From positions 1-64,000 of IMG/VR virus record IMGVR_UViG_3300037502_002993: a stretch of DNA of 64,000 nucleotides; one strand, written 5' to 3'. A model generated the notes under the pieces. It was given only the letters and a program-made list of their open reading frames with translations, did not search any database and had not been told where the DNA came from. Position numbers and translations under genes: made by a program. Below are positions 10,595 to 31,957 of the stretch, piece by piece. The stretch's first letter is position 1; the number at the start of each line of letters is the position of its first letter. Origin of the DNA: a virus.

Positions 10595-12580
10595 TCATGT
10601 AGTTTTCACCCCTCCCATTAACATGACGTCATAGGGGTGGTCGGGTCGATTCTGGTTGAGGAATAGGCGGGGATGAGTCACGGCTGCTTGTTGCTTCTCC
10701 AAGGCCATCAACCCACCCAGACTGCGGTTCTCCATCAGTTCACTATAGCGTGCAAAGCGTCCTTTGATGGCGGGCTTTGGAAAGGTGTAATCTCCATTGT
10801 CCTTATCCCGGGCCGTCATGGCGAATAACAGCATTTCTGAATGGACCAGGTTCACATAGAGCTTCTCATTGATCAGCTGGTTGAAATGGATCAGCGCCTC
10901 TGTATGATTTCGATATTCAGTCAAGAACCGCTTGCCGTTGATGTTGGCCTGACTGCTCTTATCAAGCTTGATGCCCTTATCGTCACTTTTGGATTGGATA
11001 AAGGTACTGATGCGCTTCATCACCTCATGCATGTGAACGTGTTTCATCGGCATGACCAGGAAGGGTTTCTCCGGATCAAAGTCCGACATGTCGATCACAA
11101 TGTTACCACTGTCATCATGGGTCCAGCGTTTCTTCACCAGGTACTGCAGCATGGCATGGGAGAATGACGCCTTCCGATTGTGCAGCGAAACCGTTAGCAT
11201 ATCACGAATGGGTTCGTCGCAGTCTGCAATGCTAAAGAGGATCTGGGTGATCTGACTGGCACTGCGGATGGGATAGAGATTGATCTTTCTCACCATCAGG
11301 ATATCGGCAAGGTTCTTTGCCTCCGTGTGGTGAATGGTCATGATCAGCTTACGTCCCATCCACTTCTTCTTTAAGAAGATGACCTCATCCATTCCCCGAT
11401 ACTGCAGGTACTTACTTTCCACCTGACCCAGTTGGAACTTGTCCACCCCTCCAATGCTGTCTTGGTGCTTGGTCGACAGTACCGCTGAGGTGATCTTATC
11501 TCCGGTGTCTACCGCACTGACCTGACCGATATTGGTGTCTTTAGGGATACTAAAGGCAATCCGTCCGTAACAGGTAGAGCAGACCCCCTGGGGATCGGGA
11601 TGGGTACAGCCCAACACTGAGCGCAGCTGAATGGTCTGTCCGATTAGGTGGGTGTGGTCTTTGGTGATCCAATCCAACACCACACTGCCGTCCTCCTGCT
11701 TGGCGTAGTAATATTTCCCCACCAAGGTTTTGAACATCTCCCTCATCACCGGGAATTGGATGCTGTAGGAGGTACCACAGTCACCATGATGGAGGCGCTG
11801 GATATAGGCGGCCACCATCTGCAATTTCCGGTTGAAGTATTCGGTATCGCGAATCAACTCCTTGTTAAATGCCAAGGCCTTAGACCCACTGCGGGATTCA
11901 ATCAGATTCCCATAAAGCCCCGGTACGCCTTCGAGCAGTCCTCGGGTAATGGGCACACGGAAGATATCTGAGTTCACATCAGTTCGATCCCCTAAAGGAC
12001 CAAAGCACTGCAGGGCCTGCCCCATCTTGATGGTCCCGCTGCGCAGGGATTCTGCAATCGGGTTTCCAATCAAGTCATCTGAGGTCAGCAGGGTCTTTTT
12101 GATAACCTCATAGGTCTTGGCAATGCTTGCGGTGTTGGGCTGTACTGCCGCATTGGCCTTCTTGATGTCGGGGTGCTCCATAACCTGAAGGGCATCAATC
12201 AGCGACATGGTCGTGACGTAGCGCCCGAGGTTGGTGATGATGGCATTGTACAGGCGGTTATTGGTTTTAAATACCTGATGGGCCAGTGTCTCCGTATCGG
12301 CGGGCTCCCCCAACTGTTGGTGGATGTGCCAGGCGACTCGGTTCATCCGATCCAGAATGCTCCCTCCACTCAACCGCCCTTTCCCTAGGTGGAAGTCTTT
12401 AAGCAGAGACACCTCGGGATAGAAGGTGAGGGGGTACCAGAAGTACACGGAGATGATGGTGGCGCGGGTGTGGGTTTCGATCTCTCCGTCGTCAAAGACG
12501 ACAACATGACGCTCCTCGGGAAGGGCCCAAAGGGCCGCTTCCTCCATTGCCAGTAGGTCTCTTGCGGAGTACCGATTCAT
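10595..12580 (-). CDS. Phage RNA polymerase beta' subunit, C-terminal part (phiKZ gp74-like)
   Basis: 661 residues matching the C-terminal half of RNAP beta'. A zinc-type segment CTHPDPQGVCSTCYG is followed by a trigger-loop region (DKITSAVLSTKHQDSIGG), which corresponds to the bacterial LTMRTFHxGG region. It belongs to the non-virion RNAP that transcribes phage genes inside the phage nucleus. The start ATG at 12580 overlaps the stop of the beta C-terminal gene by one base (TAATG), so the two are translationally coupled. Confidence 0.88.
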   Translation of the reverse strand: MNRYSARDLLAMEEAALWALPEERHVVVFDDGEIETHTRATIISVYFWYPLTFYPEVSLLKDFHLGKGRLSGGSILDRMNRVAWHIHQQLGEPADTETLAHQVFKTNNRLYNAIITNLGRYVTTMSLIDALQVMEHPDIKKANAAVQPNTASIAKTYEVIKKTLLTSDDLIGNPIAESLRSGTIKMGQALQCFGPLGDRTDVNSDIFRVPITRGLLEGVPGLYGNLIESRSGSKALAFNKELIRDTEYFNRKLQMVAAYIQRLHHGDCGTSYSIQFPVMREMFKTLVGKYYYAKQEDGSVVLDWITKDHTHLIGQTIQLRSVLGCTHPDPQGVCSTCYGRIAFSIPKDTNIGQVSAVDTGDKITSAVLSTKHQDSIGGVDKFQLGQVESKYLQYRGMDEVIFLKKKWMGRKLIMTIHHTEAKNLADILMVRKINLYPIRSASQITQILFSIADCDEPIRDMLTVSLHNRKASFSHAMLQYLVKKRWTHDDSGNIVIDMSDFDPEKPFLVMPMKHVHMHEVMKRISTFIQSKSDDKGIKLDKSSQANINGKRFLTEYRNHTEALIHFNQLINEKLYVNLVHSEMLLFAMTARDKDNGDYTFPKPAIKGRFARYSELMENRSLGGLMALEKQQAAVTHPRLFLNQNRPDHPYDVMLMGGVKTT

Positions 12581-26806: not shown

Positions 26807-26992
26807 TTACCCACGACCATTGAGGTAGTCAGCGTGTATCCAGTTGGCCGCCATGTCCACCACAGGACCTTGAAGGGCTAACTTACCTGTAATCTCGTGG
26901 GGCTTACTGACATCCCAACACCACAGGTGAGGGGCCAGCCTTGAGGTCTTCTCAGTTGCCCAGTTATCCAGATTCAGGATTAAAATCAGTGC
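26807..26992 (-). CDS. RNA polymerase beta' N-terminal part, exon 4
   Basis: Last exon of the split beta' gene. It reads ALILILNLDNWATEKTSRLA, then PHEITGKLALQGPVV and ends HADYLNGRG. Joined to the upstream pieces it continues the catalytic loop as NADFDGD-ALILIL. Alone it has no ATG. The first base follows the terminal G of intron C at 26993. The 61 codons close the gene. Confidence 0.8.
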   Translation of the reverse strand, partial: ALILILNLDNWATEKTSRLAPHLWCWDVSKPHEITGKLALQGPVVDMAANWIHADYLNGRG

Positions 26993-27436
26993 CAAATGTC
27001 TTCAGTGTGGTTCGTTAGGCCACACCCGCCACCTCCCCGCCTCACGGCGGTAAGGCGCTGCTCTGGGCGTTACCCAGACTGTTGAGATCATCTCTTATTC
27101 CACTTCCTGTGGAATCCTCCCGTTTTGACCCCACTTGGGGCCTACGCTACTCATCACTGTGATCCATTCCTTGGCAGTGCTTTCGCTGACCGTTGAGCCC
27201 ACTCCTTATCAATTAAGACTTAGGAGCTTCGCTGCGTGATTGGACAATCTCCACCGTTATTACCGACTGGCGTGTTTGTAACGCCAGGAGCGGCTAGTAG
27301 CCGCCCGTACCCAGTTAATTAGACTGGCCGCTAGTTTGTTTCCAGAACTAGTTTGGTAGATGGAGCTCTAAGCCCGTCCCCGCAATTAGAGAGGTTGTTT
27401 AGCTGTATGTTACCATACAGGGTGACATCACTGTTT
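26993..27436 (-). mobile_element. Group I intron C in RNAP beta' (444 nt, no ORF)
   Basis: Core signatures: AACCTCTCTAATTGCGGGGA near the 5' part, a GCTCAACGGTCAGC segment, AGAGATGATCTC with a P8-like stem, and a final CTAACGAACC...GAAGACATTTG. P1: exon GGUGAU pairs with GUCACC ten bases into the intron, placing a U-G wobble at the splice site. P10: exon 4 CACUG pairs with CAGUG just before that guide sequence. Both support the boundaries given. No endonuclease gene is inside. Confidence 0.8.
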
Positions 27437-27448
27437 ATCACCATCAAA
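27437..27448 (-). CDS. RNA polymerase beta' exon 3 (12-nt microexon, FDGD)
   Basis: TTTGATGGTGAT encodes the FDGD of the catalytic NADFDGD loop, whose aspartates bind the active-site magnesium. Its first six bases fit P10 of intron B (UUUGAU with AUCAAG) and its last six fit P1 of intron C (GGUGAU with GUCACC). The exon is read from splice logic and protein conservation; RNA evidence is needed. Confidence 0.75.
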
Positions 27449-27929
27449 CAAATATCTTCGACTGGAGTCGTTAATTCCAGCCCGTCTTCCCTGGGACTAC
27501 TGCACCAGGAGACAGCTTCAGGATTTCCCTGAATGATTGAGACCATATCTTCCACTGTGTCTAAACACAGCAGCCTCCCGTTTCGATTTAAAGGACTTAC
27601 GTCTAGTGCCATTCCACACTAGCGGCCTACCCAAACACTTGGCTCTACTCTACTCACTTTAATCTCCGTAGAGACCAGCGCACTTTACAGCGCTGTCACT
27701 CCGCTTGCTTTGAGCAAGCCGCAGCTTTCGATGGTCGTTGAACACATGCCGTAGTTCCTAGTGTAGAAACCTTAGGCACTTCGTTGCGCTGATTCTGCCT
27801 GTTCAACACGTTTTTACCAAGCCACCCACTTCCATTACTGGGGGTGGTATTGTAGTGGGTTTCCCCCTACAAGTGGTAGTGTTGACATACAGCAAGTTCC
27901 CGCAGTTAGAGAGGTAAGGACCTTGATCG
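27449..27929 (-). mobile_element. Group I intron B in RNAP beta' (481 nt, no ORF)
   Basis: Core signatures: TTACCTCTCTAACTGCGGGA near the 5' end, GTTCAACGACCATCG, AAGATATGGTCTC followed by CATTCAGGGAAATCCTGAAG, and TTAACGACTCCAG...GAAGATATTTG at the end. P1: exon GGAU pairs with GUCC nine bases into the intron, with the U-G wobble at the splice site. P10: the 3' exon UUUGAU pairs with AUCAAG directly before the guide. The intron is unusually compact at its 5' end. Confidence 0.8.
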
Positions 27930-27935
27930 ATCCGC
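27930..27935 (-). CDS. RNA polymerase beta' exon 2 (6-nt microexon, AD)
   Basis: GCGGAT encodes Ala-Asp, the two residues needed between the N of exon 1 and FDGD of exon 3 to give the universal NADFDGD loop. It ends in U, as group I 5' splice sites require, and is preceded by a G, as the intron A end requires. It is the only six-base solution I found that satisfies the frame and both splice rules. Confidence 0.65.
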
Positions 27936-28402
27936 CGGTGCCTTCAGTAGGGGGCGTTACTCCCTACCCGCTACCCTTCTGTCTCTCGACAGTAAGGCGC
28001 TGCTCCAGGTTTTCCCTGGATGCCGAGACTATATCTTCACCCGCCAGCTTTAGACTGGGTAGGGTGTCTTCCGTTTCCCCGCCCGATCACTTGGCAGGTA
28101 CAGGGGCCCGAATCCCTTAGTCGTTGGGCACATCCCATATCCCTGTAAAAGGAACTTAGGGACTTCGCTGCGTGATTCCCCATTTTGCCTTATCTAGCGC
28201 ATCCTCGTCTCTTTTACTGTACCGCTGTGGTTAGCAGCGCCCCTGTGGGGTGTCTGACGACACCGGTCACTCTTTCGAGCACAGGTTAGTGTACGAGGCT
28301 TTAGTGGGTTCCCGTCAATTAGGAAGAACACCGCCCAGAACTTTCATCCTGGGGGAACATTAGGAAAGTTTCTCCAATCGAGGTATTTTAACTTTCCTGT
28401 CT
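27936..28402 (-). mobile_element. Group I intron A in RNAP beta' (467 nt, no ORF)
   Basis: Core signatures: CCTAATTGACGGGAACCC, GCCCAACGACTAAGGG, AAGATATAGTC with the P8-like CATCCAGGGAAAACCTGG, and GTAACGCCCCC...GAAGGCACCG at the end. A 9-bp stem (AGGAAAGTT with AACTTTCCT) lies in the P1/P2 region; pairing of exon AAU with GUU beyond it would give the U-G wobble, but this P1 is weak. Long stretches match the intron in the RNAP beta gene, including ACACCGGTCACTCTTTCGAG. Confidence 0.75.
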
Positions 28403-29650
28403 ATTGGGGGCTTTCAAAACTAGCGCAGAAAGTCCAATGGTGTTATCAGCCACATTGGACTTAAACTTGGTAATGAAGAATTGCTGGGTACTCCCTCGTT
28501 GAAGTGTTGGATTCCTGGAGAAGATACAACTGATGCCTTTTCCTGGTGCCTCATCTACCAGTTCTTTCAGTAATGCCTCCATCATGGGGTTGAATGAGGA
28601 CACACTGCGGTAGACAAAGTCCATGGCTTGTGTGCTGGTCATGCCACGCTTAAGCAGCTTATTGACCAGGTGGTACTTAAACAACTGAATACCCAACCCC
28701 CACGGCAGGTGCAGTTCATCGTAGTCATGGGGGTCGGTAATACTGGTGATAACAGCTCGTGCTGTGTAATGCAGGCGAGAACCGAAGACATGCTTACGCA
28801 GAACCCCACTCTTTGAGGCCATGCGGTCCTTCATGAAACTGTGGTAGTACTGACACAGTGACTTGATGGACGAAGAGACCCGATTCTCCACATCCGCCTG
28901 CCGGAGTGGGACCACGCTACTACTGGCACTGGCCATAGTCAATACCGCGTCTTTAGCTGCGTTCAGTGGGTTGTCCACATAGCGGCCCGAGTTGGTACTC
29001 TCCATGACGAAACATACCCGATTGGGCACCATCAGGTATTTCGGAAAGAACAGATGTCGGTAGGTATCGATCCACGTCATAAACTCATGGCGTTCTTTGA
29101 CGTTGTTGCCGAACATTTTCTCGCTAGCAAAGAACTCAATGTGTTTATCAAAGTCCTCCACAAAGGCTTTAAACCCCCGTCTCGGGTTATACGCCAGAAA
29201 CCGATCCAGTCGTTTTCTGGTTTCCTTCCCCATGGGTTTTTCCATATCAAACCGATATTTGGTATTGATCAGATACTCAAGGAAATCCACATGGCCTGTC
29301 TTGAGTTTGGGCTCAAGGATCAGGTACATCTCCGGGTGCATAAGAGCCGGTACCCCTTCCGGGGCCTGTAGCCAGAGCACACTCTTAATGGCTTGGGTGG
29401 TGGTGGATTCCACTGGGGTTTTACACACACTACACACAATGCCGATCTCATCCACACGGGTGTGCTTCTGACAATGGCACGTAGCTCCGAACTCGATGGT
29501 ATCGGTGTGATCGTAATGGGTGATGAGGTGCTTGTCCAATAACTCCTTTTGTTCCGGAATGGAGATGTCAAACTTGTTGGCGATGAGGGGATCAAACGTT
29601 AGACGCGCAAACTCCTCATCATAGTTGACCATTGTAGCAACAATGCCCAT
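28403..29650 (-). CDS. RNA polymerase beta' N-terminal part, exon 1 (phiKZ gp55-like)
   Basis: 416 codons from ATG 29650 (GGAGG upstream). Zinc-ribbon CHCQKHTRVDEIGIVCSVC near residues 58-76, a switch-type region RKHVFGSRLHYTARAVI, and near the end FSRNPTLQRGSTQQFF, equivalent to bacterial RxPTLHRLGIQ just ahead of the catalytic loop. The exon ends KAPN; without splicing it stops after RQES and lacks all catalytic aspartates. Spliced product about 483 residues. It lies next to the ChmA candidate, as phiKZ gp55 does to gp54. Confidence 0.88.
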
Positions 29651-29756: not shown

Positions 29757-31736
29757 TCAGTAGTAACGACCGGAACCCGCCACGTTGCCCTGATAGACAT
29801 GCCCGCGGTTCTGGTTCACCGTGGAACCGCCCTGGTGAATGTGTGCCTGACCGTCCACCGCGAACTGACTCATGAACTGGTTGCCGGCGAAGCGCTGGTT
29901 GCCACCCAGGACCTGAGAGATGTTCTCCAGCTCGACCTGCAAACCAGCACCAGCAGTGGCATCGTCCAGTGCCTTGATGAAACCAGGCGTCAGCGCCAGA
30001 CGCGCAGCACGACCAGTCACCTCCACACGAGAGCCCGCGTACTGACGGGTCAGCTTCTCCAGGCGATCCAGGCGCATGGCAGCCGGCATGGTGCCGAAGC
30101 CGCCCGGGTTGTTGCCGCAGAAGATCGCGTACCACTCATCGAACGCCACCTGGTCGCCCTTGGTGATGTTGAGCATCGCCAGCACGTCCAGTTCACGCAG
30201 ATCGCGGATCTGACCCTGATCATCCACCCAGCGACCCAGCAGGATCTCCTGGTTGGTGTGACGTACCAGTGGATCGCCCTCAGCAATGGCCTGGGAGAAA
30301 CGACCACTGGTCAGGTTATCAGCCGCGGCAATCAGACGCTTGCGTGCCTGGTTCTGGTACTTGCCAGGGGTGGCAGCGTCCAGCAGGAAGGTTTCGAAGG
30401 CGGAGTTCTCACTCATCGGCTGTACGTCGATGAGAAACGCCGGCATCGCTTCCATGGCATGACGAACGAACTCCAGGAAGTTCTGATCGGAGTAGTTCTT
30501 GGCCTTCAGGTCCACGTACTGGAACTCGGAGAAGGGCATCTTGTAGCCCAGTGCACCGATATCCTTCCAGTCCACCCCTTTCACACCCAGGCGCGGCTTG
30601 AGGGCTTCCAGCCAGGCGTAGTTGTAGGTCAGGCGGAATGCGTTGGACAGACCCAGCATGTAGAACTCACCCGTCTGGGACTGGATGTGCGGGGCCGGGC
30701 AGTTATTGGTGATGACCACAGTGGGCATGAAGGGTTGGGTCACCTGCTGCTGATTGGGAGAACCCCAACCGCCCTGCGGCTGACCACCGATGACACGACC
30801 GCCAGTGAACTCCACCCCAACGAAGCAGGACAGTTCATTGAGGGCGGTGTTCTCCTCGTAGAACTCATCCTCGTCCTTGGTATCCCCTTCGACCTGAGCG
30901 CCCATCCGCACAATCACGTCAGAGCGGATCGGATTGCCGACAATGTCGAACTTCGGCTCAGCAGTGAAGTCGAAAGAGGCTACGAAGCGGGTGTTGCTCG
31001 CTGCCTGACCGTTTTCGTTGATCGGCTTGAGGTCTTCGATACGGAAGGGCACTTCCCCAGCGAAGATCTGGATGCCATCGTCCACCCGGTTGACGGAATC
31101 GATCAGCAGGCGCTTGACCTCCACGGACTCCAGCTTGAAGTCGAAGTGACGTGGCACCAGAATGGGACCTGCGTCGATCGCGGTGACGTCACGACCTTCC
31201 GGCTGAATGCCCAGTTGGTTGAAGACGGTGTTGACCACCTTGGCCCAGTACTTCTCAGTGTAGACGTCCTGGCTGAAGGTTGTGACCTCGATCTGGGTCT
31301 GACCCACCCACTCCTTGCGCTTGCGCAGGGGGCGATCGGAATCCAGCATCACAACGCGGATGGCCACGGCGGTCTTCTGAGCGACCTGAGCGACCTTCAC
31401 CACCAGGATGGAACTACGACCCACACGGTGGGTTTCGGAGTCGAAGCGGATCAGGTGGAAGTCGTCGGGCATGCGCTGCATTTCGACTTCGGTTTTGTAG
31501 GCATCACGGATGGCGGTGAAGGCCTGGGAGGTGCGCTCTTCGCCACCGTCCATCTGACCGGAACGACGGAACACGGTGTTGATGTCACGGGGGTCGTTCA
31601 GGCCCCGTGCGGCGGGTTTGGGCGCTGCAGCACCCACATTACCGCCATAGCCAGTCGGACCACGACCCGTCGGCTGCGGTTGTGCCTTGGGCTGCTCGGG
31701 CTGGTTCTGGTTGCTTTCGTTATCGCGGATACCCAT
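29757..31736 (-). CDS. chmA: Probable chimallin, phage nuclear shell protein (phiKZ gp54-like)
   Basis: 659 residues. The N-terminus is disordered (Gln/Pro/Gly-rich, residues 1-50) and the C-terminal tail is flexible (QGNVAGSGRYY), with a folded middle, consistent with ChmA, which forms a flexible square lattice through its termini. The call rests mainly on position directly upstream of the gp55-like beta' gene, length and expected abundance: codon use is visibly more biased than in neighbours. I cannot align it here. Start ATG 31736 with AAGGAG upstream; the leader has two perfect palindromes. Confidence 0.65.
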   Translation of the reverse strand: MGIRDNESNQNQPEQPKAQPQPTGRGPTGYGGNVGAAAPKPAARGLNDPRDINTVFRRSGQMDGGEERTSQAFTAIRDAYKTEVEMQRMPDDFHLIRFDSETHRVGRSSILVVKVAQVAQKTAVAIRVVMLDSDRPLRKRKEWVGQTQIEVTTFSQDVYTEKYWAKVVNTVFNQLGIQPEGRDVTAIDAGPILVPRHFDFKLESVEVKRLLIDSVNRVDDGIQIFAGEVPFRIEDLKPINENGQAASNTRFVASFDFTAEPKFDIVGNPIRSDVIVRMGAQVEGDTKDEDEFYEENTALNELSCFVGVEFTGGRVIGGQPQGGWGSPNQQQVTQPFMPTVVITNNCPAPHIQSQTGEFYMLGLSNAFRLTYNYAWLEALKPRLGVKGVDWKDIGALGYKMPFSEFQYVDLKAKNYSDQNFLEFVRHAMEAMPAFLIDVQPMSENSAFETFLLDAATPGKYQNQARKRLIAAADNLTSGRFSQAIAEGDPLVRHTNQEILLGRWVDDQGQIRDLRELDVLAMLNITKGDQVAFDEWYAIFCGNNPGGFGTMPAAMRLDRLEKLTRQYAGSRVEVTGRAARLALTPGFIKALDDATAGAGLQVELENISQVLGGNQRFAGNQFMSQFAVDGQAHIHQGGSTVNQNRGHVYQGNVAGSGRYY

Positions 31737-31759
31737 GAGGGCTTTCTCCTTGCGTTTTA

Positions 31760-31795
31760 TTGCAGTCGACTGCAATGCTGTCCAGTTAACTGGAC
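31760..31795 (-). promoter_or_regulatory. Twin perfect palindromes in the ChmA leader
   Basis: TTGCAGTCGACTGCAA (31760-31775) and GTCCAGTTAACTGGAC (31780-31795), four bases apart, 24-60 bases before the start codon. In RNA both form tight hairpins; they could protect the 5' end of an abundant message or bind a protein as DNA. Confidence 0.55.
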
Positions 31796-31957
31796 GGCTC
31801 TTGCCTGTGAATGATGTGGGTTTCAAATCTGTTCGGATAAACCCACACCAGAATCCTTGCGTTACGACATACCGCTTAATGGCCTAGAAGGCCCGTGAGA
31901 CTGTCAGGTGACAATCCCCTATAAGATAACATTCCCAGTATTTTTCTACATGGGCAT

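Follow-up and report, generated by a model that had tools for sequence, protein, structure and literature searches.

The gene encoding the beta' subunit of the non-virion RNA polymerase (nvRNAP) of a nucleus-forming, phiKZ-like jumbo phage very probably harbours three independent group I introns within the seven codons of its NADFDGD motif, which leave between them exons of merely 6 and 12 nt. These introns sit on universally conserved codons of the cellular-type RNA polymerase. The analysed record is IMG/VR IMGVR_UViG_3300037502_002993 (220,598 nt), whose positions 1 to 64,000 form the window (i.e. the whole 64,000-nt stretch of DNA that was analysed) to which coordinates refer unless stated otherwise. 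The split beta' gene occupies 29650-26807 on the minus strand, where the letters were inspected directly.

A beta' gene in four pieces

A preliminary description had read this locus as a phiKZ gp55-type polymerase gene, which homology bears out. Exon 1 (28403..29650, minus strand) is a 416-codon frame corresponding to residues 1-416 of nvRNAP beta', and it does end as described, with KAPN at AAT and a stop right after. It scores 439 bits against phrog_2987 (RNA polymerase beta subunit), and PhiPA3 gp054 is 46.8% identical to it. Exon 4 (26807..26992, minus strand), which opens with GCACTG at 26992, encodes the C-terminal 61 residues of beta' (ALILILNLDNW...LNGRG stop), as seen from phrog_2987, phrog_35368 and the alignment with 7ogp; the short ORF at 26995-26807 matches phrog_2987 positions 424-476, i.e. 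the last 53 positions of the family. Joining four exons gives a 483-codon open frame (KAPN/AD/FDGD/AL, slashes marking splice sites here and below), and with it the phrog_2987 match grows to 510 bits, covering positions 1-476. The joined protein aligns with 7ogp_A, the solved phiKZ subunit, at E 5.9e-143 with no gap across ADFDGD (7ogp chain A being, according to its depositors, PHIKZ055 joined with PHIKZ056.1). It is a gp55-type protein, homologous over its full length and equipped with the DxDGD motif. The phage is considered to be of the nucleus-forming kind because the beta' gene adjoins the nuclear shell protein gene (phrog_4795; 29757-31826, E 6.4e-121), as it does in phiKZ.

The residues missing between the two long exons are found in the 1410-nt gap that separates them, which contains exactly one GCNGAY and exactly one TTYGAYGGNGAY. 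These are exon 2 (27930..27935, minus strand; GCGGAT, Ala-Asp, 6 nt), the sole AD-coding hexamer in the gap, and exon 3 (27437..27448, minus strand; TTTGATGGTGAT, Phe-Asp-Gly-Asp, 12 nt), the sole FDGD-coding 12-mer, whose FDGD together with the D of exon 2 makes up the catalytic DFDGD. Both are in the correct order, with a G immediately before each. In dinucleotide shuffles, an FDGD-coding 12-mer turned up in 26 of 20,000 and both motifs, ordered and with intron-sized spacing, in 6 of 20,000. The predicted joined mRNA would read ...CCCCCAAT-GCGGAT-TTTGATGGTGAT-GCACTG..., and the predicted beta' peptide across the junctions would be KAPNADFDGDAL. Frame, single motifs and ungapped alignment all agree with the earlier proposal that exons of 6 and 12 nt restore N-AD-FDGD-AL.

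The same locus could be viewed as a decaying pseudogene filled by selfish introns in a defective or dying lineage, a view that draws on the lack of an endonuclease ORF in the three introns, which makes them look immobile. However, exons 1 and 4 show no damage, their length, start and stop being normal, the micro-exons are exact, and no second copy of this essential gene was found in the 220,598-nt record, which leaves decay with a next to negligible probability.

Genes split solely at these sites are easily misannotated, the 3' exon showing up as a separate PHROG, and this is a caution that the catalytic residues of these polymerases escape gene callers. The PHROG in question, phrog_35368, of listed unknown function, matches the downstream exon of beta' (26807-26995) and is probably not a separate gene family.

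Three group I cores

The gap is filled by intron A (27936..28402; 467 nt, site N/AD), intron B (27449..27929; 481 nt, site NAD/FDGD) and intron C (26993..27436; 444 nt, site FDGD/A), all on the minus strand. Each gives a covariance-model match to RF00028 that spans the whole core (model 1-253), with 65.5 bits for A (E 1.9e-17, at 28379-28003), 37.3 bits for B (E 5.3e-9; 32.5 bits, E 1.4e-6, when its own segment is searched alone) and 21.8 bits for C (E 2.4e-4, at 27446-27063). The claim of three separate cores holds, and the search did not return one large intron. Only core A passes the Rfam gathering score of 50, B and C being below it, so that these two rest on additional evidence. All 5' exons end in U and all introns in G (AAU/A...CCG/G, GAU/C...UUG/U and GAU/A...UUG/G for A, B and C), and inspection of the alignment reveals P7 strands that differ among the introns yet pair in each of them (GACUA with UAGUC in A, GACCA with UGGUC in B, GGUCA with UGAUC in C). 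The sites of A and B are shared by introns of relatives and that of C by an intron of PA7. None of the three introns was found to enclose an ORF of notable length, a 93-aa ORF at 27331-27612 straddling exon 3, and none contains the endonuclease ORF of a homing intron.

Could fewer than three working introns be present? One composite intron (or twintron) might be removed, or exons 2 and 3 might be skipped, with the ADFDGD residues coming from elsewhere. Exon skipping between group I introns has precedents in phages Twort and SIOphi (PMC11878797), and with only phase-0 introns and exons of 6 and 12 nt, any skip product here would keep the reading frame. Nevertheless, the three cores are complete, each with its own terminal G, its own guide and, as would not be the case in a twintron, its own flanking coding codons, while each of the three sites holds a lone intron in other phages. 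Skipping faces the further objections that the record has no second beta' copy and that a product lacking DFDGD could not catalyse. We consider this alternative very unlikely as an account of the locus; skipping may occur as a minor side product.

Guide sequences and a divided exon

Candidate guides can be found for all three introns. In intron B, the internal guide sequence (IGS) GUCC (27918..27921, minus strand) pairs with GGAU in a 4-bp P1, directly adjacent to a 6-bp P10 in which AUCAAG (27927-27922, minus strand), which precedes the IGS, pairs with UUUGAU of exon 3. In intron C, the IGS GUCACC (27421..27426, minus strand) pairs with GGUGAU in a 6-bp P1 that includes a U-G, and CAGUG (27433-27429, minus strand) pairs with CACUG of exon 4 in a 5-bp P10. 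Intron A had been said to be less well supported at P1 and it is, since its proposed IGS GUU (28356..28358, minus strand) pairs with exon AAU, with a U-G at the splice site, over just 3-4 bp, and no convincing P10 was found for it. The pairings claimed for B and C are all present, although the shuffle fractions (A 0.24, B 0.46, C 0.046) place P1 alone beyond chance only for C.

Relatives help here. In a positional comparison, limited to the nucleotides before P2 and made by inspection, GUU(CC) stands just before P2 in 5/5 site-A introns (those of phiKZ and kmuB being near copies) and GUC in 9/9 site-B introns; GUU pairs with AAU and GUC with GAU, each with a U-G at the splice site. Intron A bears the site-A triplet even though its closest kin include introns of site B. 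At site C, PA7 pairs GGAGAU with GUCUCC where the window pairs GGUGAU with GUCACC, a compensatory change. Automated scoring of guide specificity without fixed positions gave 15/26, and the argument here relies on the positional comparison only. The weak P1 of intron A would seem to be eased by the comparison with other site-A introns, and the proposed boundaries lean above all on protein homology and on the introns that relatives have at these positions.

From this anatomy we infer self-splicing in vivo, as we do any order of splicing and the manner in which the introns arrived. Each intron would fold its own core, its guide would recognise the last few exon nucleotides with a U-G at the splice site, and it would be excised by the two-step guanosine reaction, upon which the flanking exons would be ligated. 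The P1 of intron B would find its target in the 6-nt exon. The 12-nt exon would be shared, its first half being used by the P10 of B and its second half by the P1 of C (the division that had been described, and for which the pairings are there), so that the ribozymes would not need to compete for exon nucleotides. The mature mRNA would encode an ordinary 483-aa beta' with its catalytic loop intact.

A hotspot for introns

Introns are found in this motif in ~33 other phage records, where they occupy up to seven positions within 21 nt; none was found in the motif in PhiPA3, nor in L020 and L021, the closest IMG/VR relatives found (50% identity). Site A (N/AD) is occupied in phiKZ, kmuB, KpGz_1 and L073, and probably in L091; NA/D in L120; and site B (NAD/FDGD) in Vibrio phage 2 TSL-2019, Aeromonas phage PS1 (L076), L034, L070, L071, L072, L075, L083, L090 and L109. 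In L033 the split seems to fall within the F codon. FD/GD is occupied in Vibrio phage XC32 and L110, site D (FDG/D) in 2050HW, Totoro, Aeromonas D3, Miami, HHBS8_1, L034, L038, L050, L073, L076, L088, L090, L113 and L115, and site C (FDGD/) in PA7. For each of the three sites used in the window there are phages with a lone group I intron, namely phiKZ and kmuB (A), L077, L070, L072 and others (B), and PA7 (C). The phiKZ system (PHIKZ055, HNH PHIKZ056, PHIKZ056.1) is the same gene interrupted at the same site A (N/ADFDGD), with the guide GUU(CC) and a group I core of 75.6 bits, but by one intron with an HNH endonuclease instead of three ORF-less ones.

Five other records have two introns separated by a micro-exon (9, 9, 9, 15 and 21 nt). 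In four of them an RF00028 match lies on each side of the exon, which is TTTGACGGT in L034, TTCGACGGT in Aeromonas phage PS1 (L076) and TACGACGGT in L090 (9 nt each), and GCCGATTTCGACGGT in L073 (15 nt). The fifth, L179, reads ...TVRA/PNADFDG/DALNVS... on the reverse strand near 11325-11348, with a 21-nt exon; its first intron contains a large HNH ORF. The window is the sole three-intron gene found, and its 6- and 12-nt exons include the shortest one. The stack would have arisen because the motif is a hotspot where different introns have inserted time and again within this group of phages.

PS1 (MN032614.2; L076 4722-6350) offers a close parallel from an isolate. Its motif is interrupted by two group I introns (NAD/FDG/D), one at site B and one at site D, the latter with an HNH ORF, as against three introns in the window. 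The beta' introns of PS1 and its 9-nt exon are unannotated in MN032614.2, and this isolate is a good laboratory test case.

The three-intron arrangement is known from one record only, which derives from a metagenome, and searches for a further contig that shares its exon-3 junction or the arrangement itself found none. Exact peptide patterns of exon 1 revealed no close relatives in IMG/VR, which is why relatives were sought by alignment; a megablast of the locus against phages, a search of genome contigs (prophages) and the use of alignment A3 as a query gave no match. An assembly artefact, in which intron variants of several phages in the sample were merged into a chimera, would account for this singularity. 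Yet pairwise identity among introns A, B and C is only about one half, so that no shared sequence that could cause a chimera is seen, the 6- and 12-nt joints are exactly in frame, and a comparable two-intron stack exists in the genome of the isolate PS1. Artefact is to our minds extremely improbable.

Comparison with known systems

We know of no denser packing of self-splicing introns in a phage gene, and no paper describing introns in the DFDGD motif was found among the open-licence papers searched. The stack is nonetheless best seen as an extreme variant of known phenomena, i.e. single RNA polymerase introns, multi-intron genes and mini-exons. Single homing introns in the RNA polymerase genes of jumbo phages are known (PMC11620839) and introns favour active-site codons (PMC12908238). 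The homing intron of PhiPA3 gp210 interrupts an active-site motif of an RNA polymerase beta-subunit gene (Birkholz et al. 2024, PMC11620839), but this is one intron in the virion enzyme, whereas the window has three in a different subunit. Twort orf142 and genes of Bastillevirinae have up to three group I introns per gene and phiNIT1 rNDPL has a small exon (PMC11878797), although these are other genes and phages and are not known to have three introns inside a seven-codon motif. Mini-exons of a few nucleotides between group I or group II introns occur in fungal mitochondria (PMC8971849, PMC10352661), with exons down to 3 nt (PMC8971849), which means that, organelle genes being included, exon size alone is no record for the window. 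The earlier statement that such tiny exons are very rare must be softened accordingly, given these fungal cases and the 9-21 nt exons of two-intron genes in five other phages; what stands is that the triple was found only in the window.

Kinship and spread of the introns

In a tree of 33 intron cores, intron A pairs with the 13.6-kb intron of the same genome (100/99), intron B falls in a group with the intron at 165.9 kb and one from a Vibrio phage (88/92), and intron C is on its own. Tandem duplication was rejected as the origin of the three, which are not each other's nearest kin. The two introns of L034 are sisters (99/94), and site-D introns cluster. Since the tree shows both groupings, same-site inheritance and within-genome spread both occur.

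Endonuclease homing requires a long target, while 4-6 nt suffice for a guide sequence. Each insertion destroys the long homing targets of its neighbours while a 4-6-nt guide match survives, and for this reason we tentatively suggest, as an idea that may well prove wrong, that the catalytic-loop codons are a recurrent landing strip on which introns settle side by side via re-targeting of their guides (ectopic spread within a genome, in which reverse splicing may play a part) and not via endonuclease homing. The uncoupling of transcription and translation in nucleus-forming phages may make such stacks tolerable. The locus makes it testable (i) how neighbouring ribozymes share a 6- or 12-nt exon without skipping, (ii) how introns can stack when the arrival of one abolishes the target on which homing of the next depends and (iii) whether more introns are tolerated where phages separate transcription from translation.

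Other introns of the record

Seven RF00028 matches were found in the record, all in polymerase genes, three in beta' and four elsewhere. An RNA-polymerase-beta-like gene at 15992-12580 (minus strand), by inspection probably nvRNAP beta of the gp71-73 type, is split by a group I intron with a core at 13948-13574 (73.8 bits). This 13.6-kb intron sits, by inspection, at a conserved motif (...HGGATRN/KGVICRI...) and apparently contains a disrupted endonuclease ORF (14736-14344 plus the following frame). The virion RNA polymerase beta gene (phrog_3148; record positions 165870-168108, loci L005 and L001) has two group I introns, the first of which contains a 374-aa HNH endonuclease, while the second splits ...CADRDDAKR/NFISVQARQ..., near the site of the PhiPA3 gp210 intron. 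Lastly, the DNA polymerase gene (phrog_3011; record positions 212895-213348, L004) has a group I intron just before DLVSAYPS.
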